Shown: positions 6,986 to 27,303 of the stretch, one piece after another | Numbering within the stretch: position 1 is the first letter of the stretch | Layout: each line of letters begins with the position of its first letter | IMG/VR virus record: IMGVR_UViG_3300019880_000007 | Coordinates: 1 to 27,303 of that record | DNA: 27,303 bases | DNA from: a virus | Reading direction: 5' to 3' (one strand) | Translations under genes and position numbers: made by a program | The notes under the pieces: model-generated | The model's database searches: none | What the model saw: only the letters and a program-made list of their open reading frames with translations | Told to the model about the DNA's origin: nothing

Positions 6986-7110
6986 GTATGTAGGCGGACA
7001 ACCAGACGGGCACTCAATGAGGTGTCATTGCTGGCAACAATGACATGCCCACATTCTCCCGCCACACCGCGTACGGTGTGGTTACTGCGTCGTTGAAAGT
7101 CGTTCGTCAT
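6943..7110 (-). CDS. 55-aa ORF coupled to the zinc-ribbon gene
   Basis: The ORF runs from ATG 7110, which overlaps the TGA of the upstream gene (ATGA), to TAG at 6943-6945. The product begins MTNDFQRRSNHTVRGVAGEC and ends RLVDRRASLI. It is basic, with a single Cys and no recognised family. The stop-start coupling supports translation. Against it, the segment contains two perfect 8-bp hairpins (7023-7045 and 7062-7081), so it may instead be a structured intercistronic region that happens to be open. Confidence 0.45.
   Translation of the reverse strand: MTNDFQRRSNHTVRGVAGECGHVIVASNDTSLSARLVVRLHTESSRLVDRRASLI
7023..7081. repeat. Two tandem perfect hairpins
   Basis: Arm TGTCATTG at 7023-7030 pairs with CAATGACA at 7038-7045 across a 7-nt loop. 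Arm CCACACCG at 7062-7069 pairs with CGGTGTGG at 7074-7081 across a 4-nt loop. Neither is followed by a T run on either strand, so they are not ordinary terminators. They fall inside the 55-aa ORF downstream of the capsid gene and could stabilise the upstream mRNA. Confidence 0.6.
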
Positions 7111-7364
7111 ATAACGTAGTCATCTTGCGTCTCCTCGGAAGGTCTCTTTAGAACATCCGCAGGAGGCGCATCAGGGCCGCTGGATAGTACCTGTTGAATG
7201 TACGATGGCCTTTCAAGAATCTGAAGGTTATCGATGCAATCATTGGTACTACATACCAACAGCCCCAGTTGGGGCTTTAATGCCGACTGTCTTTGGAGTG
7301 TACCGCAACGCTGACAGTACAACCAAGGATCGCCGTAAAGGCCAGAGTGTGATTGGTTTGACAA
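7107..7364 (-). CDS. Small zinc-ribbon-type protein next to the major capsid gene
   Basis: An 85-aa protein with C17-x2-C20 (YCQRCGTLQ) and C38-x4-C43 (LVCSTNDCIDN), the layout of a two-knuckle zinc ribbon. The C-terminal third is acidic and disordered. The start is TTG at 7364, chosen because GGAGGTG lies about five bases upstream and no ATG is suitable. It follows the capsid gene by 15 bases. Its role is unknown; a virion-associated or regulatory zinc protein is possible. Confidence 0.65.
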   Translation of the reverse strand: MSNQSHSGLYGDPWLYCQRCGTLQRQSALKPQLGLLVCSTNDCIDNLQILERPSYIQQVLSSGPDAPPADVLKRPSEETQDDYVI

Positions 7365-16195: not shown

Positions 16196-16337
16196 CGCTT
16201 TTTGCTTTTTCCTGTACGAACTTCGGGAACATCGAGCTTGCTTGTCTTTTTACTTCTTCGACTTTTGGGCTTACTAGCTTAGCAGGTTGCTTAACACCGC
16301 CTGGCGTAGCCCCAAGGACTTTACCGTTCTCGGCCAT
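16191..16337 (-). CDS. 48-aa leader protein of the late operon
   Basis: The ATG at 16337 is preceded by GAGGTGA and lies about 17 bases beyond the leftward -10 box, so it is the first cistron of the morphogenesis operon. The product begins MAENGKVLGATPGGVKQPAK and is Lys-rich throughout (SPKVEEVKRQ, QEKAKSA), probably disordered. No family recognised. The good Shine-Dalgarno and promoter proximity support translation; a peptide with a regulatory or packaging accessory role is possible. Confidence 0.6.
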   Translation of the reverse strand: MAENGKVLGATPGGVKQPAKLVSPKVEEVKRQASSMFPKFVQEKAKSA

Positions 16338-16353
16338 AGTTCACCTCGCTAGC

Positions 16354-16383
16354 ATTATGCCATAGCAGAGCGAAGCTTGTCAA
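16354..16383 (-). promoter_or_regulatory. Leftward promoter of the morphogenesis arm
   Basis: On the minus strand TTGACA (16383-16378), an 18-bp spacer and CATAAT (16359-16354) form a near-consensus sigma70 promoter. The spacer contains GCTTCGC. It would drive the 48-aa ORF, terminases and downstream genes. Confidence 0.6.
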
Positions 16384-16406
16384 GAGTTTTTTGTACGTGC
16401 AAGCCA

Positions 16407-16434
16407 TTGAAATGAATGGTGTTGTGAAAATAAT
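16407..16434 (+). promoter_or_regulatory. Rightward promoter candidate
   Basis: TTGAAA (16407-16412), a 16-bp spacer and AATAAT (16429-16434). The palindrome that follows would cover the transcription start, as expected for a repressed promoter. The first recognised gene is 400 bp away, which lowers confidence. Confidence 0.4.
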
Positions 16435-16452
16435 GCAATGCAATTGCATTGC
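16435..16452. promoter_or_regulatory. 18-bp perfect palindrome, operator candidate
   Basis: GCAATGCAATTGCATTGC is a perfect 18-bp palindrome immediately after the rightward -10 box and about 50 bp from the leftward -35. The 10-mer AATGCAATGC formed with the preceding bases recurs inside the promoter at 25558-25586, upstream of a ribbon-helix-helix-like gene. Confidence 0.5.
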
Positions 16453-16806
16453 GAAGCGGGCGACCAGCGCAGGCGCGGCCTCTCGCTGTCTTTACCAGTT
16501 CAAGCGAAGCCGCTGTCTTAAGCACACGCTCGCGAAGCCGGCGAAGCGCTTGTCAAACGCTTCAGCTTCTGAATGGTTCTACGCACAGCGCTCGCGAAGC
16601 TACGCACAGCGTGAACAAGCGAAGCTTGCGAAAAAGTGAAAAAATTTATCGAGGAGCGTCTAGGCGGTGTTGCATCTTTGGCTTTTGGGGTCGGGGGCTT
16701 ATGCGGAACATAGCTTGAGGAGCGAATTGCAAGCCAGCTTCGAGAAAGCTTGCATCATTTCTTATATCCCTTGCGTCTTTGCATAGGCCGCGCATCTTCG
16801 ATGTTA

Positions 16807-16818
16807 TGGCGAAAGCCA
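16807..16818 (+). promoter_or_regulatory. GAAA-tetraloop hairpin in a 5' leader
   Basis: TGGC-GAAA-GCCA lies just before the Shine-Dalgarno of the gene starting at 16834. The same 12-mer precedes the gene at 20761, and a related CCGC-GAAA-GCGG precedes the gene at 25777. Confidence 0.5.
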
Positions 16819-16833
16819 GAAGGATGGTGGAAT

Positions 16834-17196
16834 ATGGAAGACAATGCTAAAGAGCAAGCGATTTATACGATTCCGGCGAATAGTCACCTAGCGGTAATTA
16901 TCATGGCGCTATTCGAGAAGGAACAGCGTCTTAATCGAGATGAAGGGAGATATTCATTCGAGAATTACATCTCTCTTCTACTCGACAAAGGATTGAAGAC
17001 TCGGGATAATTATCTCGATGCTGATGAAGATCGACGTAATCTCGCGGCCTACAATAAGGCGAAGGAACGTATTCCTACGCCACCACCGCTTGATTCGAAT
17101 GATCCTCAAACAATCCAAGCGCATATCGCTTATTCACAAGCCGACGTCGCTCTGCGAGCGAAGCATCATATCGGTGGAACCAAGCAAGCGCTGTAG
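16834..17196 (+). CDS. 120-aa early protein, helical, unknown
   Basis: The start is ATG 16834, behind AGGATGG; the frame is open further upstream but lacks a ribosome site there. The product is hydrophilic, with a central helical stretch (FENYISLLLDKGLKTRDNYL) and a Pro-rich segment (RIPTPPPLDSND). Residues 8-60 could be a ribbon-helix-helix-like DNA-binding unit (YTIPANSHLAV strand, then helices), but this is weak. It is the first gene of the right arm and shares the AGGATGGTG ribosome-site pattern with the next gene. Confidence 0.6.
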   Translation: MEDNAKEQAIYTIPANSHLAVIIMALFEKEQRLNRDEGRYSFENYISLLLDKGLKTRDNYLDADEDRRNLAAYNKAKERIPTPPPLDSNDPQTIQAHIAYSQADVALRAKHHIGGTKQAL

Positions 17197-17267
17197 AATT
17201 GGCTGCAAGCGCGGCCTATTCATAGGCGCAAGGGATTGTAGGTCGTCATATAAAAGGATGGTGAAAC

Positions 17268-17543
17268 GTGCAAAGCGAAGATAGAACTATATATCTCGCC
17301 TTGCTACGCCAACTTCGCGGAATGCACGCAAGCGCATCTAATGGTTTAATGCGCTCGCGCAGTAAGAATGAGGCTTCGCCGGTCAGAATGCCCGGTTACT
17401 ACTCATTCTTCTGTATCCATGATAAGCATAAATGGAATGCCTGCCGTAATTGCAAGCGTACGCAAAGCGATGGTAACGCGCAGCGGGAAGAATATTTGAC
17501 GAAGCTGGAGAAAATCATGACTTTCGCGGGAAGCTTGCTGTAG
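17268..17543 (+). CDS. 91-aa protein with Cys/His cluster
   Basis: The start is GTG at 17268 behind AAAGGATGGTG, matching the ribosome-site pattern of the preceding gene. Residues 45-70 (YYSFFCIHDKHKWNACRNCKR) hold a possible zinc site made from one Cys, two His and a C-x2-C pair. The C-terminus is helical. No known family is recognised. The cysteine pair links it to the other small zinc-type proteins of this arm. Confidence 0.55.
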   Translation: MQSEDRTIYLALLRQLRGMHASASNGLMRSRSKNEASPVRMPGYYSFFCIHDKHKWNACRNCKRTQSDGNAQREEYLTKLEKIMTFAGSLL

Positions 17544-17931
17544 CAAGGATGCTTTGCGTCACAGCTTACTTAAAGCGCAGACGCATGAGCCTATGGCTAA
17601 GCCATTGATTATTAATGGCTTGCGCATGGATGCGCCTATGCACCAGAATGAGGCAGGGGGCAGCCTGAAGAAAGCGGGGAAAATGGCCAAAGGCCATGTA
17701 TCGCTATATTGATGTATTGATTGATTGATTGTTATTTTTTTTTTTAGTAGTAGTACTATATTGACGCTTCGCTATTTTCCCTTTGCCATTTTCTCCAGCC
17801 TGCGGCCTATGGCATTCTGGTGCAATAGCGGAATCATGGCTAGCGCCTTGATTCTAAAGGATTTATTTTACTTGACTTGCGCTTGCGCCTATGATAGCAT
17901 CTTGTCACGCGACTGAAAGGGCGCGCGAGCA
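17544..17931. other. Non-coding interval with AT-rich core and inverted repeats, origin candidate
   Basis: This is 388 bp with no credible gene. AAGCCATT...AATGGCTT forms an 8-bp hairpin near 17597. GCACCAGAATG (about 17640) is inverted as CATTCTGGTGC (about 17812), and the flanks continue as an imperfect inverted repeat (CAGCCTG, GAAAATGGC, AAAGG on one side, their complements on the other). Between the arms lies ATGGCC-AAA-GGCCAT and an AT-rich core with TGATTGATTGATTG followed by a run of twelve T near 17734. Inverted arms around an easily melted core suit a replication origin; a bidirectional terminator with a U-run is the alternative. The right end holds the promoter at 17872. Confidence 0.45.
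17848..17900 (+). promoter_or_regulatory. Right-arm promoter with upstream word
   Basis: TTGATTCTAAAGGA (17848-17861) is followed by TTGACT (17872-17877), a 17-bp spacer and TAGCAT (17895-17900). The upstream word recurs exactly before the promoter at 25558. The spacer carries GCGCTTGCGCC. It drives the zinc-protein operon starting at 17932. Confidence 0.6.
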
Positions 17932-18270
17932 ATGTCATTACAATGTCAATGTGGGCGAGACGCAGTTAAGATTCATTGTCCTCGATGCGGTAGTTTTGCG
18001 TGCTACGCACGACGTGGCTTGGCGCAGCCGTTGAAGATAAGCGATGGTGTCGTCACTAGCGTTGTTGAAGATATGAACTATGTTTGTCGCAAGTGTGGAT
18101 TGACGTTTTTCAACAGCAATCGCGCTAGCTGTGCTGCACCGAAGTCGAATATCACAGGCCGCGCGCGTACTGTTGATTCGCGAATCAACCCAGACTTAAT
18201 CGGTAAGCCTGACGCTGAAAGAATGGCATGGGCAAAAGCGCAACTTAGCAAGCTTAAGAGGTCGGAATGA
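17932..18270 (+). CDS. Double zinc-ribbon-like protein
   Basis: A 112-aa protein. Cys pairs at residues 5/7, 16/19 (HCPRCG) and 52/55 (VCRKCG), plus Cys24 and Cys67, could form two zinc ribbons. The C-terminus is a basic helix (ERMAWAKAQLSKLKRSE). A GAAAGGG lies upstream of the ATG, about 25 bases after the predicted transcription start. It is the first gene of an operon coupled by ATGA overlaps. Such small ribbons often bind RNA polymerase, DNA or other proteins; the target is unknown. Confidence 0.65.
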   Translation: MSLQCQCGRDAVKIHCPRCGSFACYARRGLAQPLKISDGVVTSVVEDMNYVCRKCGLTFFNSNRASCAAPKSNITGRARTVDSRINPDLIGKPDAERMAWAKAQLSKLKRSE

Positions 18271-18458
18271 TTACAATGTGTGATATTCCTGATTGTAATC
18301 ACCCATGTGCGATGGCATTCTGTAATGAAAAGCTATTCGACATGAAACTATGCACAGAGCATTTCATGAGTGTCATGACAGATACAGAATTGCGAGCGGC
18401 AATAGTATTTTGGATTCTTCAATTTGAACGTGAACAGTTGAAAGGAGCAAGCTCATGA
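18267..18458 (+). CDS. 63-aa Cys/His protein, treble-clef-like
   Basis: The ATG overlaps the previous stop (ATGA). C5-x4-C10, C14-x4-C19 and C29-x2-H32 give six zinc ligands within 30 residues, compatible with a treble-clef or a two-metal cluster. The C-terminal half is an amphipathic helix (LRAAIVFWILQFEREQL). The stop is coupled to the next gene. Function unknown. Confidence 0.6.
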   Translation: MITMCDIPDCNHPCAMAFCNEKLFDMKLCTEHFMSVMTDTELRAAIVFWILQFEREQLKGASS

Positions 18459-18661
18459 GTAATGGATTGTACAGAACTACAGTTCGTGAACTTAAAAGGG
18501 CATTGGCCGCGCATGATGATAACAACGTAGTCGAGATATTTCTATTAAATCCTGGCGGTGGCGTTGCTGAAGAATTCGATATCTACAATATTTACCGTGG
18601 TGGCGATGACAATTCGAATATCTGCTCTATCGAACTTCGAGCAGTGAAGGACAGGCCATGA
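18455..18661 (+). CDS. 68-aa protein of unknown function
   Basis: It starts at ATG 18455 overlapping the previous stop, with AAAGGAGC nearby. It has an alpha-beta composition (TTVRELKRALAAHDDNNVVE, then IFLLNPGGGVAEEFDIYNIY) and an acidic net charge. No family recognised. CATTGGCCGCGC, a word repeated in this arm, is read through in the coding sequence at 18501-18512. Confidence 0.55.
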   Translation: MSNGLYRTTVRELKRALAAHDDNNVVEIFLLNPGGGVAEEFDIYNIYRGGDDNSNICSIELRAVKDRP

Positions 18662-18792
18662 ATAACTTTCTAATGTTCGTCGGAAGCTGCGTTGTCGCTA
18701 TGGCCATAATGGCAGCCGTAGGCTGGGTCATTTCAAAAATCTTCGGCATCAGGGGTGGGGACGTCAAGGATGATAATTGGTATAACTACTAG
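18658..18792 (+). CDS. 44-aa single-pass membrane protein
   Basis: The ATG at 18658 overlaps the previous stop (ATGA). The peptide starts MNNFLMFVGSCVVAMAIMAA with one membrane segment at about residues 4-27, then a polar, acidic tail ending DNWYNY. It is stop-start coupled on its upstream side, which supports expression. Small early membrane proteins of phages can alter the host envelope or block superinfection, but nothing here shows which. Confidence 0.6.
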   Translation: MNNFLMFVGSCVVAMAIMAAVGWVISKIFGIRGGDVKDDNWYNY

Positions 18793-18804
18793 GAGCGCTG
18801 TGAA

Positions 18805-19056
18805 ATGAGTTCACAAATGTCGAAAAGTGCACCACGAACGTGTAATATGTGCGAAGCAAAATTGCAAAAACCGCAATACTTGCCAAAAGGTGCAATCTAC
18901 GGTAGATGGAAAGCTATCTGTCTCACGTGCAATACAGAATACGTTTGGTCACATCCACACGTGTGGCTTGAAAGGCACCCGCTTCCACTTTTTGACAGAA
19001 AGATCATTCTCGAACAGAAATTCGATTTCTACGGAAAGAGGCTATCAAATGTATAA
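18805..19056 (+). CDS. 83-aa zinc-ribbon protein
   Basis: C13-x2-C16 (CNMC) and C39-x2-C42 (CLTC) form a typical zinc ribbon with a basic linker of 22 residues. The C-terminus (WSHPHVWLERHPLPLFDRK) has four His and three Trp/Phe positions. A ribosome site (AGGAGCG) lies upstream. It overlaps the next start by eight bases. Function unknown. Confidence 0.6.
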   Translation: MSSQMSKSAPRTCNMCEAKLQKPQYLPKGAIYGRWKAICLTCNTEYVWSHPHVWLERHPLPLFDRKIILEQKFDFYGKRLSNV

Positions 19057-19228
19057 AGTTTTTAACAGGAAAACACACAAATTAGTACAGTTGATAACAG
19101 CAGCACGTTACGAAGAGTGGCTTCGTGACTGTGGAAAGAATGACGTTCCAATTGCGGATTACGATTGCGTGTTCATTCCTGAAGGACGTATACAAGTAGC
19201 TGACCTTGTTCGTGAGGGTGAATATTAG
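19049..19228 (+). CDS. 59-aa protein of unknown function
   Basis: Start at ATG 19049 behind AAGAGG, rather than the longer open frame. The product is MYKVFNRKTHKLVQLITAAR onward, a mix of strand and helix, ending VADLVREGEY. It has two Cys that are not paired as a zinc site. It overlaps the upstream zinc-ribbon gene and is followed directly by the 51-aa ORF. No family recognised. Confidence 0.55.
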   Translation: MYKVFNRKTHKLVQLITAARYEEWLRDCGKNDVPIADYDCVFIPEGRIQVADLVREGEY

Positions 19229-19229
19229 A

Positions 19230-19385
19230 ATGACTGAACTCATATGTGTAGTATGCGCGCTAGTATTTATCAACAGCCGTGATAAGAGAAGTAGTAGAGG
19301 TGGAGTAAGGCTAGTTCAGCTTATGATGAAACCTAATGGGGTGGAAGAGCCAGTGTGCGACGCACGCCACCAGTTATTACCATGA
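19230..19385 (+). CDS. 51-aa ORF with a start duplicated from the gene at 19761
   Basis: It begins MTELICVVCAL; the gene at 19761 begins MVELICVVCAL, and the two DNA starts match nearly base for base over about 30 nt. After residue 11 the similarity stops, exactly where the nested inverted repeat (19265-19415) begins. The remaining codons follow one side of that structure and end at TGA 19383-19385. It is either a real short Cys protein (C6, C9, C43) or the remnant of a duplicated gene invaded or replaced by the structured element. Confidence 0.4.
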   Translation: MTELICVVCALVFINSRDKRSSRGGVRLVQLMMKPNGVEEPVCDARHQLLP

Positions 19386-19415
19386 ACTAATGCTTCTCCA
19401 CGGCTGTTTATAAAT
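19265..19415 (+). ncRNA. Candidate ~150-nt structured RNA or element with nested stems
   Basis: Six stems nest in order. (1) ATTTATCAACAGCCGTG (19265-19281) with CACGGCTGTTTATAAAT (19399-19415), 16 of 17 pairs. (2) GAGAAG (19286-19291) with CTTCTC (19393-19398). (3) TAGTTCA (19312-19318) with TGAACTA (19383-19389). (4) TAAT (19334-19337) with ATTA (19376-19379). (5) GGTGG (19340-19344) with CCACC (19367-19371). (6) GTGC-GAC-GCAC (19355-19365). This is one long rod with internal loops, much more structure than its neighbourhood. It lies 60 nt upstream of the next gene. I do not recognise the family, and strand is assumed from the operon. Confidence 0.45.
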
Positions 19416-19470
19416 GCTGGCGCTCTTAGCGCGGCCAATAAATTCGTGCTTCGCAAAAAAGGAGAAACAA

Positions 19471-19767
19471 ATGCAATTGATTGTTACGAACAGGTGTTAC
19501 GGTGGCTTCGCGCTTTCGCCTGCGGCTGAAAAGCGTTTGAATGAACTAAAGGGTAACACCGATCCTGATGACATAAAATGGCTCACAGATTGGAACGTTG
19601 CTCGCGATGACGAGCATTTGTTGTTAGTACTACACGAACTTGGCTTGGAAGCTTCCGCCGGAGAGTATTGTGAGTTGGAAATAACCGAGATTCCTGACGG
19701 TGTTGAGTGGGTAATCGAAGAAAATGACGGGCATGAAATCGTCGCGGAGAAACATCGTATATGGTAG
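19471..19767 (+). CDS. 98-aa conserved phage protein (GGFxLS type)
   Basis: Start at ATG 19471 behind AAGGAG. The sequence MQLIVTNRCYGGFALSPAAE...LEITEIPDGVEWVIEE...AEKHRIW matches a conserved phage protein type I recognise (start M-x-I-V-I-N-x-C-x-GGF-x-LS; end IPDxVEWxIEExDGxExxAExHRxW). It is found in many phages and has no known function. The two conserved ends are intact here. It overlaps the next gene by seven bases. Confidence 0.75.
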   Translation: MQLIVTNRCYGGFALSPAAEKRLNELKGNTDPDDIKWLTDWNVARDDEHLLLVLHELGLEASAGEYCELEITEIPDGVEWVIEENDGHEIVAEKHRIW

Positions 19768-20366
19768 AACTCATTTGTGTAGTATGCGCTCTAAAGAGCG
19801 ACGCTAGCGCGAGCGCAGGCGTCTTTCAATTCGACGAAACAAATCCATTGGCCGCGCGCACGTGTCCGCTATGCTCATCGAGCGCTACCGTTGCCCTTGA
19901 AATCTTCAAACGCTTTGCGCTATCACGAGCTGATACTACTAAAGCGAAGCCTTCGCCGGTAGGCGCGCCCAATAAATTGAATGCTGAACGTTGGCCGCTT
20001 CCGCCGGTAGGAGAGAAAGAACCAATTCGTTCCTCGGATGTAGTCGCGAGACATATTGCAGAAACTGACGCACGAGCGACGTCGAAGATTCTTAACGAAA
20101 GCCATAAGTGGCAATCTCATGTTGACGCTGTGCGCAGTTTATTGCGACGAGGCACGCCTGACTGCGTCAACGCAGACGTATGGTGGGACGGATTTCATTT
20201 TTACATGTTACACTCATGGAGTATCGAAGCGGGCTCGCATACGCCAGATACTCTAGACTACGTCACTATCAGACTTTGTTCTAAAGACAAAGGTTACAAA
20301 GACGTCACGTTCTACATCAATGCTGAGGACGAGGGCTTCACTGAAGTCGGTGAGATTACGAAGTAG
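19761..20366 (+). CDS. 201-aa protein with N-terminal zinc knuckle
   Basis: The ATG at 19761 overlaps the upstream stop. C6-x2-C9 (ICVVC) and C35-x2-C38 (TCPLC) form a zinc-ribbon-like N-terminus. A linker and a C-terminal alpha-beta domain (residues ~115-200: HVDAVRSLLRR, WWDGFHFYMLHSW, DVTFYINAEDEG) follow. Its first codons are duplicated at 19230. The C-terminal domain is not recognised. Confidence 0.6.
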   Translation: MVELICVVCALKSDASASAGVFQFDETNPLAARTCPLCSSSATVALEIFKRFALSRADTTKAKPSPVGAPNKLNAERWPLPPVGEKEPIRSSDVVARHIAETDARATSKILNESHKWQSHVDAVRSLLRRGTPDCVNADVWWDGFHFYMLHSWSIEAGSHTPDTLDYVTIRLCSKDKGYKDVTFYINAEDEGFTEVGEITK

Positions 20367-20428
20367 CTTGCTTCGCGCAAGCGTAGAACCCATTGAAGAT
20401 TGAATAGTTCTACAAAGGAGAGATGAAA

Positions 20429-20620
20429 ATGCATACAAAGAAATGGACCACTGACAAAGGTTTCGAACATGAGACGACAGAGTTTGACAGTGTCGCAGAA
20501 GCAATGAAGAAACTAGGCGATCCTGAAACGTTGCTTTTGATAAATAGGGCCTATCGGCTTGAGCAGCTAAGGGAAAAACGCAAGCGAGAAAATAATCTTT
20601 CGTCGCCTGCAAGCGCTTGA
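20429..20620 (+). CDS. 63-aa charged helical protein
   Basis: Two ATGs are possible, at 20423 and 20429. AAGGAG ends at 20420, only two bases from the first but eight from the second, so I use 20429. The product is MHTKKWTTDKGFEHETTEFD onward, with a strongly basic C-terminal helix (RLEQLREKRKRENN). No family recognised. It ends the first small-protein operon; its stop overlaps the upstream word of the next promoter. Confidence 0.55.
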   Translation: MHTKKWTTDKGFEHETTEFDSVAEAMKKLGDPETLLLINRAYRLEQLREKRKRENNLSSPASA

Positions 20621-20687
20621 TTCCAAAGCCATTGGCCGCGCTCTCTTCGCGGCCCTACTTGACATTCGCTTCGCGCTAGCGCATAAT
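20617..20687 (+). promoter_or_regulatory. Right-arm promoter with upstream word and inserted hairpin
   Basis: TTGATTCCAAAGCC (20617-20630) lies upstream of TTGACA (20659-20664), a 17-bp spacer and CATAAT (20682-20687). The extra distance is filled by GGCCGCG...CGCGGCC, a 7-bp hairpin. The spacer contains TCGCTTCGCGCT. It drives the gene at 20761. Confidence 0.65.
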
Positions 20688-20728
20688 AGCGAAGCTTCGA
20701 GGTTGTAGCTACGCAGTAACAAACTAAC

Positions 20729-20740
20729 TGGCGAAAGCCA
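20729..20740 (+). promoter_or_regulatory. GAAA-tetraloop hairpin in the leader of the 148-aa gene
   Basis: TGGC-GAAA-GCCA, identical to the element at 16807-16818, lies eight bases before the GAGGAG ribosome site. It may protect the 5' end or keep the ribosome site open. Confidence 0.5.
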
Positions 20741-20760
20741 CTCAATAGAGGAGAACAGTA

Positions 20761-21207
20761 ATGAAAGCAACAAACGCAACAAACTACGCACTGACTGTCG
20801 ACGGAGAACTCACGAACTTCGCCGAGTCTCGCTGGAATAAGCACGTTGAAAAGATCGTCAAAGAGGGCGGCGTTGCACCTGTCCCCGAGAAGGTGCAAAC
20901 GTTCGTCGTATACGAAGCTGAGACGGTCGCAGACATCAGCGAACTCGTTCCGAACGAGGAAGTGGCAGTAAACCTGTTCAATCGCGGAGCGTCGCTGAAG
21001 CAATTAACGGCGATTCGCGGTTACATGGAAGACCCGAAGTTCGAGGTCGCTGACGCGCCGTATGACTTGCGTGAGGATTTGAACGCGGTCACCGAGCGTA
21101 GGGCTGCATCTCCTGAAGACCGCGTAGCTTCGTTGCTAGACAAGCTCGACGACGATGCGCTCGCGCGTATCATGGAGAAGCTCATGGCCAAAGGCGCACG
21201 TACCTAA
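20761..21207 (+). CDS. 148-aa protein of unknown function, single-gene unit
   Basis: A GAGGAG site precedes ATG 20761. The protein is acidic, with an alpha-beta N-terminal half (FVVYEAETVADISELVPNEE) and a helical C-terminus (RVASLLDKLDDDALARIMEK). It has its own promoter (20659) and a terminator (21268), so it may be made at high level as a monocistronic message. No family is recognised. Confidence 0.65.
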   Translation: MKATNATNYALTVDGELTNFAESRWNKHVEKIVKEGGVAPVPEKVQTFVVYEAETVADISELVPNEEVAVNLFNRGASLKQLTAIRGYMEDPKFEVADAPYDLREDLNAVTERRAASPEDRVASLLDKLDDDALARIMEKLMAKGART

Positions 21208-21267
21208 GCTAGCTTCGCTAACGAGTTCTACTTCACCGTTCGGCCACCATCCTTCCGGTGACGTAGT

Positions 21268-21320
21268 GGGCCGCTGACGCAAGGGTATAATGCCCAAGCG
21301 AAAGCGGCCCTTTTCTTTTT
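21268..21320 (+). terminator. Rho-independent terminator
   Basis: GGGCCGCT (21268-21275) pairs perfectly with AGCGGCCC (21303-21310), followed by TTTTCTTTTT (21311-21320). The loop contains a smaller GGG...CCC hairpin. It ends the 148-aa gene unit before the next promoter. Confidence 0.75.
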
Positions 21321-21367
21321 GCGAGCCTCTCGCTAGCGAATGAAAAGCGAAAGGATACTGTATCTCA

Positions 21368-21422
21368 TTGATAATAAAGAAGATGCAAACGGATTGACAC
21401 GCGCCTCGCGCCATGCTATCAT
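21368..21422 (+). promoter_or_regulatory. Promoter of the J-domain/VWA/FtsK operon
   Basis: A diverged upstream word TTGATAATAAAGAA (from 21368) is followed by TTGACA (21394-21399), a 17-bp spacer with GCGCCTCGCGCC and TATCAT (21417-21422). The first start codon (21461) has the strong ribosome site AAAGGAGGT. Confidence 0.7.
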
Positions 21423-21460
21423 CTTCGATTGGCGTCTGCGACACAAAAGGAGGTTATCAA

Positions 21461-22036
21461 GTGGCTGGAAGATATCAAGGTTATAGAATCAATCCGTCAG
21501 GTGTTTCACCTCCTGTGACGGGAACAAGACCATTCGCGCAGTATCAACCTGCGCCAGTGCTGGCGCAAGCTATTAAGTGTACGATAACATGGGACAGCGC
21601 CGCAGGCGTCTACAGCATCGCTACGCCATACGAGCCGAACTTCGTTGAATTCATAAAGGCGAAAATCCCCGGAGCACAGCGAGCTTGGGACCCAGGTACA
21701 AAGCTATGGACCGTCGAAGAACACTGGCTAGACGTTCTACAGACGTTAGCCACTGAACTGTGGGGCGCTGGCGCCGTACAAGTAACTACTCGTGCCAACG
21801 TCGAAGACGCGGAGCGTGAGCAACGCGAATCGCAGAAGCAAGCTATCATGGCTTCGCTACCGCCACGTGAGCGCGCACTAGTCGAATTTGTAACGGCTTT
21901 GCCATTCGAGGCCGTGCAAGCTGCGTATCGAAAAGCAGCGCTTGCTTTGCATCCCGATCGTAATCCTACGGACGGCGAAGCTATGGCTAAGCTGAACGCT
22001 GCGTGGACTAAAGTAGAAAAGGAGATGAAAAAGTGA
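21461..22036 (+). CDS. J-domain (DnaJ-like) protein with N-terminal HARP-like wrap domain
   Basis: Start at GTG 21461 behind AAAGGAGGT; the upstream open frame begins inside the promoter and is unlikely. Residues 40-100 (YSIATPYEPNFVEFIKAKIP, then RAWDPGTKLWTVEE) resemble the short wrap found at the N-terminus of phage and SMARCAL1/HARP-type helicases. The C-terminal ~50 residues form a J-domain with HPD at 164-166 (LHPDRNPTDGEAMAKLNAAW). J-domains recruit and stimulate Hsp70; this one may bring host DnaK to a phage complex. No helicase motor follows, which is unusual. Confidence 0.8.
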   Translation: MAGRYQGYRINPSGVSPPVTGTRPFAQYQPAPVLAQAIKCTITWDSAAGVYSIATPYEPNFVEFIKAKIPGAQRAWDPGTKLWTVEEHWLDVLQTLATELWGAGAVQVTTRANVEDAEREQRESQKQAIMASLPPRERALVEFVTALPFEAVQAAYRKAALALHPDRNPTDGEAMAKLNAAWTKVEKEMKK

Positions 22037-22215
22037 AAGAAAACTTGAAATGGTCAAGAAATGTCGTAAATAACAATCCCATTCCTTCTGGCTGTTTCCT
22101 CCATAGTATTGCTGTGGCATTCTTGAATGCTGACTTCAAAAATGCATTCATTCTGAATAATGCACTTACGGAGCTACGTGAGAAGTACCCAACATGGGAC
22201 GTAGAGGAGAACTAA
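22033..22215 (+). CDS. 60-aa coupled protein of unknown function
   Basis: Start GTG at 22033 overlaps the J-domain gene stop (GTGA) behind AAAAGGAGA. The product contains PSGCFLHSIAVAFLNADFKN, then a helical C-terminus ending WDVEEN. No motif recognised. Stop-start coupling on both sides indicates it is translated with the J-domain protein. Confidence 0.55.
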   Translation: MKENLKWSRNVVNNNPIPSGCFLHSIAVAFLNADFKNAFILNNALTELREKYPTWDVEEN

Positions 22216-22403
22216 TGGCAACAGCATGTTCCTGTCAATGTCTAGCAAGAGGAAAATTGCAAATTGTTTTCTATCCTGATAACATAGTCACGTTGTGTGT
22301 TATTGATGGTCAAGAGAACATTAACATCGACCTGCAGAAAGACGAAGTCATCATTCTACAAAAGGAGCTGACACAGTGGCTGACGACACTAAAGACAAGC
22401 TGA
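22215..22403 (+). CDS. 62-aa coupled protein with N-terminal Cys cluster
   Basis: Start ATG 22215 (TAATG overlap with the upstream stop) behind GAGGAGA. The N-terminus is MATACSCQCLARGKLQIVFY. Cys5, Cys7 and Cys9 are close together, and the rest is beta-rich and then helical (IILQKELTQWLTTLKTS). It overlaps the VWA gene by 28 nt. Function unknown. Confidence 0.55.
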   Translation: MATACSCQCLARGKLQIVFYPDNIVTLCVIDGQENINIDLQKDEVIILQKELTQWLTTLKTS

Positions 22404-23170
22404 ATAAGCCTCTAGATTTGAACGTGAAAACAACGCCCGAAGGGCTAACGCAATTCGGCGTTAAGCCCTCGATACACAGTCGCATAGCGAGCGCAGCAGC
22501 GAAGCGTGAAGAACAAGCGAAGCTTGTTAACTCTGTTGGCGGAAGCAAGTTCATAAATTTCAGTCGCATTTTCATATTCCCCGACGCCAGTGGCAGTATG
22601 GACGGCGCGGCCGTCGAATCTGAGCGTAGCTACGCTCGTTCAAAAGGTACTTTCGAGACGAAACTAGATTTACTGAAGAAAGCAGTAGACTCGTATCTTC
22701 AGAATTGTAACTGCGCTATTAATCTTGTTGGCGTAGCCTCGTTTCCCGAAGGGGCATTCGCTTCGCCGTCTAGCGACTATACTACGCTTCGCCAACTCGT
22801 TAACACGCTAACACCCGACGGCAGCACGCCAATGGCTGATGCTATGGGTTATTGTTTTGAATCTGAACAATTCAGTCACGGTGTTCTTATCTCCGATGGT
22901 TGTCCTGATAATGGTCCAGAAGTGTTATCTCTTGCGGAGCAATACAAGATGAAGAAGATAACCATTGACGCTGTTCACATCGGCAATGACAGAAGTGGTG
23001 AATCGTTGATGAAACGCGTAGCTGAAATAACAGGCGGAGCCTACATTAAGTTTACTGACGTCAGTAGCTTCGCTAAGGCGTTTCAATTTCTCGCGCCCGC
23101 GAAGCGAGGATTCTTGCAAGCACACAACAATCCTGTGGCACTTTTGGGCGCAGCTGAAGTAAAGTTGTAG
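22376..23170 (+). CDS. VWA-domain protein
   Basis: A 264-aa protein with a von Willebrand factor A domain. The MIDAS motif D-x-S-x-S is at residues 70-74 (DASGS), the conserved Thr is at 151 (GSTPMADAM) and the third Asp is at 174 (LISDGCPD). It is cytoplasmic (no signal or membrane segment). The first 55 residues are a charged tail (MADDTKDKLNKPLDLNVKTT). Start GTG 22376 lies behind AAAGGAG. VWA domains bind protein partners through a metal, often with AAA+ ATPases; the FtsK-type ATPase two genes downstream is a candidate partner, but this is not shown by the sequence. Confidence 0.85.
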   Translation: MADDTKDKLNKPLDLNVKTTPEGLTQFGVKPSIHSRIASAAAKREEQAKLVNSVGGSKFINFSRIFIFPDASGSMDGAAVESERSYARSKGTFETKLDLLKKAVDSYLQNCNCAINLVGVASFPEGAFASPSSDYTTLRQLVNTLTPDGSTPMADAMGYCFESEQFSHGVLISDGCPDNGPEVLSLAEQYKMKKITIDAVHIGNDRSGESLMKRVAEITGGAYIKFTDVSSFAKAFQFLAPAKRGFLQAHNNPVALLGAAEVKL

Positions 23171-23204
23171 AGACAAAAAACACACTCAACGAGGTGAAAC
23201 AACA

Positions 23205-23453
23205 ATGGCGAAATACAAATGGTCAAAAGCACGACGTGCTCAACAGGCTAGACGCATTAGAAAATTGCAACGCAGTGGGAAAATGCTTGGACGAAAACGA
23301 ACAGTACCACTCACGGTTGAAGTCGTACACCAAAAGGATAGTGTAGCTGCAAACGTAGTCGAAAGTCTTCTCGACTACATGTGGAGCAAGCTCGACATCG
23401 ATATGAAGCTTAGCTTGTTTCACAATGAAATTCAAATGACGACTGGAGTTTAA
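23205..23453 (+). CDS. 82-aa basic protein
   Basis: Start ATG 23205 behind GAGGTGA. The N-terminal 40 residues are strongly basic (KWSKARRAQQARRIRKLQRS), suggesting nucleic-acid binding. The C-terminal half is a mixed helix (SLLDYMWSKLDIDMKLSLFH). Its stop is one base from the TTG of the FtsK-type gene, so they are translated together. Confidence 0.6.
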   Translation: MAKYKWSKARRAQQARRIRKLQRSGKMLGRKRTVPLTVEVVHQKDSVAANVVESLLDYMWSKLDIDMKLSLFHNEIQMTTGV

Positions 23454-23454
23454 C

Positions 23455-24546
23455 TTGACCGACGCACAAGCCAACGTAGTAGCGAAGCTAACGCGTAAGA
23501 TGCTCATACTCGGGGCCGCGGCCAAGCCTCTTTCAGACGTGACCGTAGGTCCACTCGTGAGCGTCTACCGCTTCGCGCCCGCGGGGAACACCCGCGTTAG
23601 CCAAATCGAGGCGCTTGCGACGGACTTCGCAGTTGAATTAGGCGTCGAAGATGTAGTAGTGAAACGACTGCCTGGAGAAAACTGCGTAGCAGTCTTCGTG
23701 CCGAACGAAAAGCGAAGCTACGTAAAGTTTTTAGAAACGACCCCAGCGCTCTGGCGCGTCAAAGATACAATGGCTGTGCCGTTGAATCTTGGTGTCACAA
23801 TGATTGGTGAACCGTTAATCGACGACCTAGCACAGCTACCGCATCTGCTAATCGCTGGTGCTACTGGAAGTGGAAAGTCAACACTTCTAACGACAATAAT
23901 AACCTCAATCGTCGCTTCGAAGACGCCACGTCAAGTTCAACTCGTTATGAGCGACACCAAGGGTGTCGACTTCCGTGCATTCGCGGCCGTGCCGCATTTG
24001 AAATACCCTATTGCATATGACGACGAAGCTACGCTAGCGCAGCTAGAGTTCGAGATTGATGACATGAATGATCGTCTCGATAAAATCGGCGCCAGCGGCG
24101 CGCATAACATCGCGGAGTACAATGCGAAGCAGCAGGGCTTGTCGAAGACGCTACCCTATACGGTAGTAGTAATAGACGAGCTAGCTGATGTAATGGAAAT
24201 GCGTGGCGCGAAGCGAGGACACCGTCCAGGTCAAGATGCAATAAGCAAGCTTGCTCAAAAAGCACGCGCCTCTGGCATACATCTACTATGCGCTACACAA
24301 AGGCCGAGCGTGAATGTCGTGAGCGGAAGTATCAAGGCAAATTTCCCAGCGCGACTCAGTTTCAAGTTACCTAGCGAAGCTGATTCACGTACCGTACTTA
24401 ACTGTGCTGGCGCAGAGCACCTGCTGTCGCAGGGTGACATGTTCTATTTATCACCACTTCGCCCTGGCTTGCAGCGCAGCCATGCTCCGTTCACCGAAGG
24501 TAAAGACATCGAAGCTGCGCTCGAAGTAGTCGTTCGATATTCATAA
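23455..24546 (+). CDS. FtsK/SpoIIIE-type DNA translocase ATPase, soluble form
   Basis: A 363-aa motor. Residues 32-100 (VGPLVSVYRFAPAGNTRVSQ...) match the FtsK alpha domain. The ATPase has Walker A GATGSGKS at 135-142, Walker B VVVIDELADVM at 237-247 and the family-specific TQRPSVNVVSGSIKANFPAR at 281-300, then LLSQGDMFYL. There is no N-terminal membrane domain and no winged-helix gamma domain, so it lacks host-type KOPS guidance. The start is TTG 23455 with GGAG six bases upstream. A free FtsK motor could move phage DNA, resolve concatemers or strip proteins. The family is certain; the role is inferred. Confidence 0.93.
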   Translation: MTDAQANVVAKLTRKMLILGAAAKPLSDVTVGPLVSVYRFAPAGNTRVSQIEALATDFAVELGVEDVVVKRLPGENCVAVFVPNEKRSYVKFLETTPALWRVKDTMAVPLNLGVTMIGEPLIDDLAQLPHLLIAGATGSGKSTLLTTIITSIVASKTPRQVQLVMSDTKGVDFRAFAAVPHLKYPIAYDDEATLAQLEFEIDDMNDRLDKIGASGAHNIAEYNAKQQGLSKTLPYTVVVIDELADVMEMRGAKRGHRPGQDAISKLAQKARASGIHLLCATQRPSVNVVSGSIKANFPARLSFKLPSEADSRTVLNCAGAEHLLSQGDMFYLSPLRPGLQRSHAPFTEGKDIEAALEVVVRYS

Positions 24547-24565
24547 AAAAAGGAGAACACACGAA

Positions 24566-24769
24566 GTGGAATATACATTCAAAGGCAAAGTAACTCAGCA
24601 CAAGCTTCAACCACATGACGAAGTATATAGTGTCGTCGAAATACAAAATCCTACCCATAAAATAGCCATTACAATGGACATAATCGTACCAATGAAATTT
24701 CCACTGGCGTCTGTCGTGTACGTAAGCATCAACGACACTGAGCCAGAAGGCGGGGCACAAGATGTTTAA
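24566..24769 (+). CDS. 67-aa beta-rich protein
   Basis: Start GTG 24566 with AAAGGAG ten bases upstream, a long but usable spacing. It is a small beta protein (YTFKGKVTQHKLQPHDEVYS, then YVSINDTEPEGGA) of OB-like size and spacing, without diagnostic residues. It overlaps the next gene. Function unknown. Confidence 0.5.
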   Translation: MEYTFKGKVTQHKLQPHDEVYSVVEIQNPTHKIAITMDIIVPMKFPLASVVYVSINDTEPEGGAQDV

Positions 24770-25088
24770 GGTAGAACAGCTAGCTATAAATCCTGACACG
24801 CCAGCGGAGCTACAGAAAATCTCCACGGACCTCGTTGGCTATGTCATTGATAAAGCAACGAAGAAAGTTATCAGCGTAAACGTAATAACCCGGAGAGCAA
24901 TTCTAGATTGGTACAAGGGTGTCACCGACAAATATGCAACAAAAGACTACCATTTCTGTATCGCCTCGATATGTCTAATCGGGACGCTTGTTGGGATACA
25001 GGTAACCGAAGTCGAGGAAAAGAAGTCTGATGACGACGGTAATAACAAAGACGGCAAAAAATCGAAGTACATGTATCATGTAAACTAG
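24762..25088 (+). CDS. 108-aa protein with acidic/Lys-rich tail
   Basis: Start ATG 24762 overlaps the previous stop by eight bases. The N-terminal ~85 residues are folded-looking, with DYHFCIASICLIGTLVGIQV as a hydrophobic stretch. The end (EEKKSDDDGNNKDGKKSKYM) is disordered and alternates acidic and basic runs. No family recognised. Confidence 0.55.
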   Translation: MFKVEQLAINPDTPAELQKISTDLVGYVIDKATKKVISVNVITRRAILDWYKGVTDKYATKDYHFCIASICLIGTLVGIQVTEVEEKKSDDDGNNKDGKKSKYMYHVN

Positions 25089-25102
25089 GAGGAGGAAGGT
25101 AG

Positions 25103-25468
25103 ATGAGTGACTTGCCGAAGTGTCCAGTAGTTTCGCAAGAGGGCCAATGTACGTTGTCACAATGGCATGAAGGTCCACACATAACCAGCCGAAGCGAGCC
25201 GTTTCAGATTACTTACACACAATCCGAAGTAGACGCGCTTCTGCAATCCGCCACGGAGAGGAAACACGTTAATGACGAGTCAGTATTTCAACGCGGCGTT
25301 CGAGCAGCGAATGAGATGATGGAGACACACATAACCACACCACCGACCATTCAACCATGTGAGTGTGCTATCTGTAAACGAACGACCCATCAGCTTGCCG
25401 AGGCGATAGCGGGCATACTGAAACGGTGCGCTGAAGCGCAGGCACGCGAAGGAGAGACGAAGCCGTGA
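25103..25468 (+). CDS. 121-aa Cys/His protein
   Basis: Start ATG 25103 behind GGAGGAAGG. The N-terminus CPVVSQEGQCTLSQWHEGPH carries two Cys and two His spaced like a compact zinc or C-x8-C site (C-x8-C-x5-H-x3-H). A second CECAICKRTTH cluster (C-x-C-x2-C...H) is near residue 87. A helical tail follows. The E-G-x-C-x-L-x-x-x-H-x-x-x-H pattern is common in small phage and actinobacterial proteins of unknown function. Confidence 0.6.
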   Translation: MSDLPKCPVVSQEGQCTLSQWHEGPHITSRSEPFQITYTQSEVDALLQSATERKHVNDESVFQRGVRAANEMMETHITTPPTIQPCECAICKRTTHQLAEAIAGILKRCAEAQAREGETKP

Positions 25469-25506
25469 ACAACGACAACTGTTCGCTTTAGCTTCGCCTT
25501 GCACCA

Positions 25507-25531
25507 TTATGGTGCAGCTTCGCTGCAAAGC
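25507..25531 (+). terminator. Hairpin pair ending the FtsK operon (weak terminator)
   Basis: Adjacent perfect stems GCACCA-TTA-TGGTGC and GCAGC-TTC-GCTGC lie just after the 121-aa gene and before the next promoter. There is no T run, so termination is only suggested by position. Confidence 0.3.
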
Positions 25532-25532
25532 A

Positions 25533-25586
25533 TTGATTCTAAAGGAGATAGAACTTATTGACAATGCAATGCGAAGCTGCTATGCT
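25533..25586 (+). promoter_or_regulatory. Promoter of the RHH/zinc-finger/nuclease unit
   Basis: TTGATTCTAAAGGA (25533-25546) is identical to the word at 17848. TTGACA (25558-25563), a 17-bp spacer (containing AATGCAATGC and GCGAAGC) and TATGCT (25581-25586) follow. The predicted start of transcription is about 25593, close to the ATG at 25595. Confidence 0.7.
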
Positions 25587-25594
25587 ACATCTCG

Positions 25595-25747
25595 ATGATA
25601 CGCGTCACTACGTCTTTTCGCATACGTCGTGACTTGTTAGATTCTTTTCGCAAAAAAGTTCCAGATCGTGGAGATCGAACATATGTAATATGTGAACTCA
25701 TCAAGATGTACCTCGCTGGACGCGTAAGCGTACCTGCGAAGCAGTAG
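25595..25747 (+). CDS. 50-aa ribbon-helix-helix-like protein, apparently leaderless
   Basis: The frame runs from ATG 25595 to TAG 25745-25747: MIRVTTSFRIRRDLLDSFRK, then DRGDRTYVICELIKMYLAGR. The layout is an N-terminal strand (RVTTSFRI), a helix starting RRDLLDSF, a short turn, and a second helix (TYVICELIKMYLAG). This matches the CopG/MetJ ribbon-helix-helix fold, whose strand pair contacts DNA in the major groove as a dimer. No ribosome site precedes it, and the ATG is about nine bases past the -10 box, so the mRNA would be nearly leaderless. It may regulate its own promoter. The next gene has its own ribosome signals. Confidence 0.65.
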   Translation: MIRVTTSFRIRRDLLDSFRKKVPDRGDRTYVICELIKMYLAGRVSVPAKQ

Positions 25748-25752
25748 ATAGG

Positions 25753-25764
25753 CCGCGAAAGCGG
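25753..25764 (+). promoter_or_regulatory. GAAA-tetraloop hairpin in leader
   Basis: CCGC-GAAA-GCGG lies just before GGGAGTAT and the ATG at 25777, the third leader with a four-bp GAAA-capped stem in the right arm. Confidence 0.5.
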
Positions 25765-25776
25765 GGAGTATCCCAC

Positions 25777-26379
25777 ATGACAGAGTACAGCGAAGCCGAT
25801 GAAATAGTCGCGTCGTTCGAGGACCGTTGTGGTTTCATAGGATGTAATGATCTAGCAGTTTACCGCTGTCATAAGTGCGCAAGGTTGTACTGTATCGAAC
25901 ACTCCTCAGAGATTGATCCAGTTCATTTCTGCACCGAATGCCTAGACGTAGTCGCTTGCGAAGTCATCGAGATGCCACTCGTTGACAAAGAAGGCGTTCG
26001 CCACAAGGGTAGGATTCTACGCCCCGTAGGGCGGGCCTTCATTGAGAACAACAAACTTATAAGTGATCTGAACGATGAAGAGTTAAAGGATTTCATCGTT
26101 CAATATCAGAAACTTCTACACGATGCTGAAGCAATCACGAATCTGTATCGGATAAGCTTGACTCAAGCTACGCACACCGCACTGGATAAGGAAATTCTTA
26201 AGCAGAAGCCTAGCGGTGAATTCTACTTCCCGCCGCCTAGGCCGCAAGTGGAACGCAAATCTCGAAACGTAGCTAAGAATCCCGAGGACAGGATTGTCGC
26301 GGCAATGGCGAAAGCCGGCGTGACGCCGGAGATGATTCTAAAAATGCTCGCAGATCGCAAAGCGAAGAAAGCGGGGTAG
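25777..26379 (+). CDS. AN1/B-box-like zinc-finger protein
   Basis: A 200-aa protein. The N-terminal zinc module has C18-x4-C23, C31-x2-C34, C39-x2-H42 and H50-x-C52 (plus C55). This order C-C-C-C-C-H-H-C is that of cross-braced AN1/B-box fingers, which bind proteins. A helical region (SDLNDEELKDFIVQYQKLLH) and a basic C-terminus (PEMILKMLADRKAKKAG) follow. It is preceded by a GAAA hairpin and a GGGAG site. It is followed by the nuclease gene, so a joint DNA-processing role is possible but unproven. Confidence 0.7.
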   Translation: MTEYSEADEIVASFEDRCGFIGCNDLAVYRCHKCARLYCIEHSSEIDPVHFCTECLDVVACEVIEMPLVDKEGVRHKGRILRPVGRAFIENNKLISDLNDEELKDFIVQYQKLLHDAEAITNLYRISLTQATHTALDKEILKQKPSGEFYFPPPRPQVERKSRNVAKNPEDRIVAAMAKAGVTPEMILKMLADRKAKKAG

Positions 26380-26406
26380 GACTATTCAATTCCTAATGAG
26401 TTCAAC

Positions 26407-27303
26407 ATGAGCACAACTGACCAACTCGTTCCAGTAGGGAAGCTGTATGAGAAACTGCCTGATGGCAGGTGGGCATTCTTTTTCGATAGCTCCGCGATTC
26501 GTTCCTTCACTGACTGTGAAGCATACTTCGAGCTAAAGCATATACGCAACGTCGGACTGCGCGGCCGCGCATGGAAGCGTGATGTCGGTAGTTGGTGGTC
26601 TTCGACGTTAGAGTTGTACTACAAAGCCTACCGCGCCAACGATGGTAACGTCAGCCTTAGTGACATGATGGAGTTTGCAGTACACGCCTGGGATGAACAC
26701 AAGATGGACGAATTCGCTGCTACGCAGCCAGCGACGTACAATGAGTTCGGCGGTCGTAAAGGCTCAATCTTGATGGCCGGAGATTACTACCACTGGAGTA
26801 TGCCAATAGATTCACGAAGCTGGAAAAAGGTAATCTCTGTCGAAGAAGGCGCAGGCAGACTACGTGAGATACACGTCGGAGAGAACGGAAGCGTCGTGGT
26901 TTACTACATAGTAAAGCCTGATCTCTACGTTCTCAACTCCAGTGACCTCATCGAACCCGTTGACCACAAGACAAAGGACTACATAAACGCTCGTCACATT
27001 CACAGTTTCAAACCGCATCAGCAGCTACAGGGTTACATAGTAGCCGCTCAAGAACTCGCTAATGAATTGGGTATCAAAACGGTAGTCGACAGATGCACTG
27101 TCAACGTCGCTGCTCGTAACGTACCTGGACCACGTGCGAAGCAGCAAGAACGGTTCACCAGATTCCCTGTCTACTACAGTCAATACGAGCTTGCTGAGTG
27201 GCGGAAGCGTACTGTGGACACAGCAACGCGGCTACGCTATTGTATAGAGAATGACATTTGGCTTTGGAACGATTCGAGTTGTCACAAGTATTCTGGTTGT
27301 GTG
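26407..27303 (+). CDS. PD-(D/E)XK nuclease, Cas4/RecB-like, cut by window edge
   Basis: Open from ATG 26407 to the right edge (299 codons). The N-terminal SAIRSFTDCEAYFEL (Cys37) matches the S-x-L-x-x-F-x-x-C-P-x-x-F start of Cas4/AddB/RecB-type nucleases. The core shows D172 (KPDLYV), D186-H-K188 (PVDHKTK) and Q206-x3-Y210 (QLQGY). Cys279, Cys292 and Cys298 could complete a four-Cys Fe-S site with Cys37. The usual His of motif I appears replaced by Trp (GSWWSS). It would degrade or trim DNA ends in recombination or replication. The ribosome site is weak (no clear GGAG). The 3' end lies outside the window. Confidence 0.85.
   Translation, partial: MSTTDQLVPVGKLYEKLPDGRWAFFFDSSAIRSFTDCEAYFELKHIRNVGLRGRAWKRDVGSWWSSTLELYYKAYRANDGNVSLSDMMEFAVHAWDEHKMDEFAATQPATYNEFGGRKGSILMAGDYYHWSMPIDSRSWKKVISVEEGAGRLREIHVGENGSVVVYYIVKPDLYVLNSSDLIEPVDHKTKDYINARHIHSFKPHQQLQGYIVAAQELANELGIKTVVDRCTVNVAARNVPGPRAKQQERFTRFPVYYSQYELAEWRKRTVDTATRLRYCIENDIWLWNDSSCHKYSGCV

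Follow-up and report, generated by a model that had tools for sequence, protein, structure and literature searches.

A long branched RNA rod in the early operon of an uncultured phage, a candidate intercistronic mRNA hairpin

What occupies the one large gap among the early genes of this uncultured phage? The window, that is the whole stretch of DNA analysed, is IMG/VR virus record IMGVR_UViG_3300019880_000007 at its full length of 27,303 bases. Its minus-strand half holds structural genes (TerL, an SU10-like portal and a major head protein) and its plus-strand half holds small genes, including one for an FtsK/SpoIIIE-like protein, which we call early on the basis of gene content and layout. 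From 18267 to 20366 these genes form a packed co-directional row with a single large gap, of 242 nt, which separates the gene ending at 19228 from the gene starting at 19471. A rod-shaped, branched RNA structure fills this gap in an otherwise compact operon (Table 1).

Table 1. Coordinates of the rod, its parts, its neighbours and related repeats (positions are those of the window, except for class B copies, which are those of the named contigs)
Feature	Positions	Strand	Remarks
Whole rod-shaped branched RNA structure	19257-19423	+	167 nt, 63 pairs
Outer helix, 5' arm	19257-19281	+	partner 19399-19423; 24/25 positions paired, one C.U mismatch, two G.U
Outer helix, 3' arm	19399-19423	+	partner 19257-19281
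Middle stems, 5' side	19286-19308	+	8+3+4+5 pairs; partners in 19374-19398
First terminal hairpin	19309-19351	+	part of three-way junction
Second terminal hairpin	19353-19367	+	GTGTGC-GAC-GCACGC
ORF 19230	19230-19385	+	51 aa; starts 1 nt past stop of upstream gene; ends inside rod
Downstream gene	19471-19767	+	phrog_16527, function not assigned
Direct repeat, copy 1	19236-19262	+	27 nt, 93%; end overlaps first six bases of rod
Direct repeat, copy 2	19767-19793	+	27 nt, 93%; within 5' end of gene 19761
Second long inverted repeat of the early region	17625-17838		11-T run in loop
Class B copy, L148	6560-6680	-	conserved structured RNA
Class B copy, L149	6942-7063	-	conserved structured RNA
Class B copy, L146	4110-4230	-	conserved structured RNA
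Class B copy, L181	2605-2725	-	conserved structured RNA
Class B copy, L168	5280-5400	-	conserved structured RNA
Class B copy, L165	1623-1747	-	conserved structured RNA

The fold of the rod is far beyond chance. On the plus strand the rod has a folding energy of about -76 to -77.5 kcal/mol and a mean pair probability of 0.96; dinucleotide-shuffled versions of the segment 19255-19425 give -46 +/- 3.5 kcal/mol, and none of the 200 reaches the native value of -77.5 kcal/mol (z -9.0). In a scan with 170-nt windows it ranks second among the structures of the record and first in the early half. The sequence-only reading had proposed a nested structured element at 19265-19415, and such an element is present, although larger than proposed. 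Its outer stem, given as 16 of 17 pairs, is genuinely paired but makes up only part of a longer stem, in which helices of 14 and 10 pairs are split by the single mismatch. What had been read as six ordered stems resolves into ten short helices (14, 10, 8, 3, 4, 5, 4, 4, 5 and 6 pairs, nine of the total being G.U). A 4-nt bulge at 19282-19285 lies between the outer helix and the middle stems, and the apex is a three-way junction bearing two terminal hairpins; the GTGC-GAC-GCAC loop described as closing the rod thus exists, but it shares the apex with another hairpin.

Is the structure selected as RNA or as DNA? The minus strand across the rod reaches about -54.9 to -55.1 kcal/mol (z -3.6), and the energy difference between sense and antisense strands is the largest in our table of inverted repeats. 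The inner 117 nt alone show the same bias (z -3.6 on the sense strand versus -1.0 on the antisense strand). Since the plus strand folds far better than the minus strand, selection appears to act on RNA in the early-gene direction. When the arms are aligned in a strand-neutral way they contain 35 Watson-Crick pairs, three G.U and no A.C. Unselected decay of a DNA palindrome would be expected to add G.U and A.C alike, so these departures, small in number, favour a function of the plus-strand RNA.

Does the rod belong to a known kind of RNA? It had been judged not to be a terminator, and this holds: the downstream sequence, CTCTTAGCGCGG, has no T run as an intrinsic terminator would. It had likewise been judged not to be a recognised ribozyme or riboswitch, in agreement with which none of the Rfam 15 covariance models matches the rod at the gathering threshold; the two best permissive matches (E 4.5 and 4.8) are at chance level. 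GOLLD and ROOL are large RNAs of phages and prophages, GOLLD exceeding 800 nt (PMC12286853). Like the rod these are structured RNAs encoded in phage genomes, but they are far larger, multi-domain, often located by tRNA genes and represented in Rfam, whereas the rod is short and without an Rfam match, and no tRNA gene occurs anywhere in the 27,303-base record.

Copies in related phages, which the sequence-only reading had proposed to look for, did not emerge: no relative of the rod sequence was found among 50,697 phage records, in the TerL relatives listed or elsewhere in the record itself. A scan of IMG/VR with the arm pattern returned just five matches; when folded these look like unrelated hairpins, and their count is one that could arise by chance. 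A 14-mer apex pattern was too short and matches at chance level. A 26/30 match of 19312-19341 to four TerL-related contigs (L213, L210, L187 and L182) falls in the half of those contigs that carries structural genes, has the same sense, and appears to be coincidental.

A TerL search gave five relatives and a TerL profile extended these to at least 80 loci at 52-67% identity; the resulting contigs, many of them fragments, carry L-numbers here. Major capsid protein (MCP) identity to L148 and L149 is 73%. GTDB genomes contained no relative by TerL or MCP profile, and among cultured phages the relatives of this group are only distant.

Do these relatives have hairpins of their own in the early region? 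A strand-neutral scan found 25 strong inverted repeats in 260 kb of their early DNA, whereas their structural DNA has 7 in 291 kb. They recur in three places, which define classes A, B and C: class A lies between genes g0 and gA, class B between gA and the homologue of gene 17932, and class C between the homologues of genes 20761 and 21413. Pooled over all strong repeats, G.U departures outnumber A.C departures 79 to 60, a modest excess.

Class A occurs between homologues of the same two early genes in L146, L148, L149, L168, L169, L173 and L181. Its loop is AT-rich and conserved, resembling AATATATATTTTTT. Between L149 and L146 the arms are 51 and 54% identical, which is the level of shuffled arms, while the flanks are 82% and the loop 64% identical; each copy nevertheless retains 53-59 Watson-Crick pairs. 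Several copies are nearly strand-symmetric (for instance -62.6 and -63.2 in L148), so part of the hairpin family could act as DNA. The second long inverted repeat of the record resembles the class A rods by its T-rich loop.

Class B, of about 110 nt, lies upstream of the 17932 homologue in six phages as a conserved island between unaligned flanks. In the five aligned copies four pairs are changed on both sides, an outcome seen in 0 of 500 shuffles, and slid registers lose the pairing; the support for compensated changes is good, not overwhelming, coming as it does from five copies in related phages. Class B corresponds to no Rfam family and has no match in the phage collection. Its outer 5' arm is also able to pair with an upstream segment, and may switch between the two. 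That class A arms stay complementary at random identity, and that class B pairs are compensated, indicates selection on shape in the relatives.

Class C is often found just after a terminator-like hairpin and just before a Shine-Dalgarno sequence. Comparison of L148 with L149 shows a 36-nt segment within it inverted, at 94% identity, which suggests that the segment flipped between short inverted repeats of the rod. In our record the corresponding place, upstream of gene 21413, has a hairpin with a T-rich tail (21265-21325) where the relatives have the terminator-like hairpin and class C rod; judging from the sequence, the class C rod seems to be reduced here.

The rod at 19257-19423 sits between genes 17932 and 20761, outside all three recurrent positions. 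Like class B it is an intergenic, sense-strand structure of the early operon; unlike class B it is downstream, not upstream, of gene 17932, and there is no sequence match between them: the class B covariance model, R1, gives no hit in the record with E under 0.5, nor any hit at the rod. The rod is accordingly an orphan, for which the group habit of long early hairpins is supported and membership of class A, B or C is not.

Some other features of the record deserve mention. The 7-mer GCTTCGC/GCGAAGC occurs 57 times, most densely in 16200-27303, and in the early half it is 11 times as frequent as dinucleotide composition predicts; in L149 and L160 the excess is 5-6-fold. The oligonucleotide d(GCGAAGC) forms an unusually stable DNA mini-hairpin. 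Arms of 28 nt with 89% complementarity, at 16766-16793 and 17209-17236, flank the gene 16834-17196, and in the structural half a strong structure on both strands (7098-7288) occupies a gap between two genes, immediately past the gene for the major head protein on its downstream side.

What, then, does the rod do? The answer we favour, at about an even level of confidence and by analogy with T7, is that it is an intercistronic hairpin of the early mRNA, probably a processing or stabilising signal of the RNase III type. An RNase III substrate has 20 bp or more of almost unbroken double-stranded RNA, about two turns of the helix, and the outer helix, with one unpaired position in 25, has this length; the rod also lies where a T7-type signal would be, between co-directional early genes on the presumed transcribed strand. 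This reading is preferred because the fold is biased to the sense strand, inside the arms as well as overall, with G.U and no A.C departures in the arms; because the rod fills the gap in a tightly packed row of genes; and because the relatives carry recurrent early intergenic inverted repeats, two classes of which show signs of selection for shape. The precedent is T7 R1.1, a 49-nt stem, where cleavage by RNase III drives phage mRNA maturation and protection; around the point of cleavage, RNase III sites show proximal, middle and distal box preferences (PMC8708148). Like the sites in T7 early mRNA, the rod is a long hairpin that separates early genes, has the orientation of the transcript and lacks a T run; it differs from them in its size and branching.

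On this mRNA-hairpin reading the rod would form in a polycistronic early transcript, between the 19049 and 19230 frames and the phrog_16527 gene, and its long double-stranded outer part would be a likely substrate for a double-strand-specific RNase of the RNase III type. A cut there would provide the mRNA downstream with a defined 5' end and the mRNA upstream with a structured 3' end; left uncut, the rod would separate the two parts of the message as a stability barrier. Transcription of the region we infer from gene direction, and cleavage and an effect on expression are likewise inferred. Counting against the mRNA-hairpin reading are an apex branched more elaborately than RNase III recognition calls for, the near strand symmetry of class A, the modest pooled G.U excess, and the location of the rod outside the recurrent positions.

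Could the rod instead be a discrete non-coding RNA, as the sequence-only reading had also raised, released by processing or made from its own promoter and acting in trans, perhaps on a host protein or nuclease that it binds? The elaborate branched fold, its high pair probability and its sense-strand bias would suit such a molecule, and in the related phages at least one structured RNA, that of class B, is conserved independently. We nevertheless consider it unlikely, since the closest upstream promoter-like match, at 19062, lies within a gene and scores a weak 9/12, no terminator-like site is listed just downstream of the rod, and neither a copy of the rod in any relative searched nor a class B match at the rod was found. 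Equally doubtful is a wider proposal, drawn from the comparison of relatives, in which the phage group would use uncatalogued intercistronic RNA rods in its early programme, selected for shape while their arms turn over as in class A, and the rod would be an orphan among them with a role of its own, for instance as an RNA acting in trans or as a decoy for a dsRNA-binding or defence protein of the host.

Somewhat less probable again is a cis-regulatory leader for translation of gene 19471, possibly coupled to ORF 19230, whose ribosomes must traverse the rod. The sequence-only reading had also named a leader for this gene, and the position fits, the rod being directly upstream of the gene and ORF 19230 beginning right behind the preceding stop codon and ending in the rod; its extension of 40 codons into the rod is an overlap that chance can produce. 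However, the rod stops 37 nt short of the Shine-Dalgarno sequence and forms no pairs with it; that sequence and the start codon are partly sequestered by a separate local structure. Inspection of the DNA upstream of gene 19471 homologues revealed no counterpart of the rod, and the rod is no known riboswitch.

The 27-nt direct repeats raise another, improbable, explanation: that the rod is the end of a cassette, comprising rod and gene 19471, which was inserted in the 5' end of gene 19761 and duplicated 27 bp, the structure being a by-product or a recombination signal. The repeats bracket rod and gene together, not the rod alone, and the first copy duplicates the first codons of gene 19761 just ahead of the rod. 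Moreover, gene 19471 occurs in many unrelated phage contigs, and the search of the TerL relatives, many of which are fragments, did not find it. Gene 19761 was likewise absent from the TerL-related contigs, and a search for its relatives found none. A truncated paralogue accounts for the repeat equally well: ORF 19230, which has no Pfam match, resembles the start of gene 19761 in its first 11 residues and may be such a remnant. A hairpin-type mobile element, as had been suggested earlier, finds no second copy in the record or elsewhere searched, although the repeats flank rod and gene, and the neighbouring genes tested included no recognised recombinase or transposase. A DNA signal would also not be expected to show sense-strand bias. 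Integron attC sites are similar in being imperfect hairpins beside a single small gene with direct repeats close by, but inspection of both outer arms found neither RYYYAAC nor GTTRRRY boxes, and the rod has a sense RNA fold with G.U pairs and stands before its gene, not after it.

Finally, a DNA-level inverted repeat (a cruciform, a signal for replication or packaging, or a fold-back duplication that is neutral) is very improbable. The early DNA of this group often contains long inverted repeats, some of them almost symmetric between the strands, but the rod has a strong sense-strand bias, G.U without A.C departures in its arms, and structure inside the arms on the sense strand only.

What is known of intercistronic hairpins as dividers of phage messages comes mainly from T7-like phages. 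The uncultured phage group described here has long hairpins at conserved places in its early operon, one class of which shows random-level arm identity between otherwise similar phages. Such hairpins allow selection on shape to be distinguished from that on sequence, and offer natural material for testing what message segmentation, or another role of double-stranded RNA, requires.
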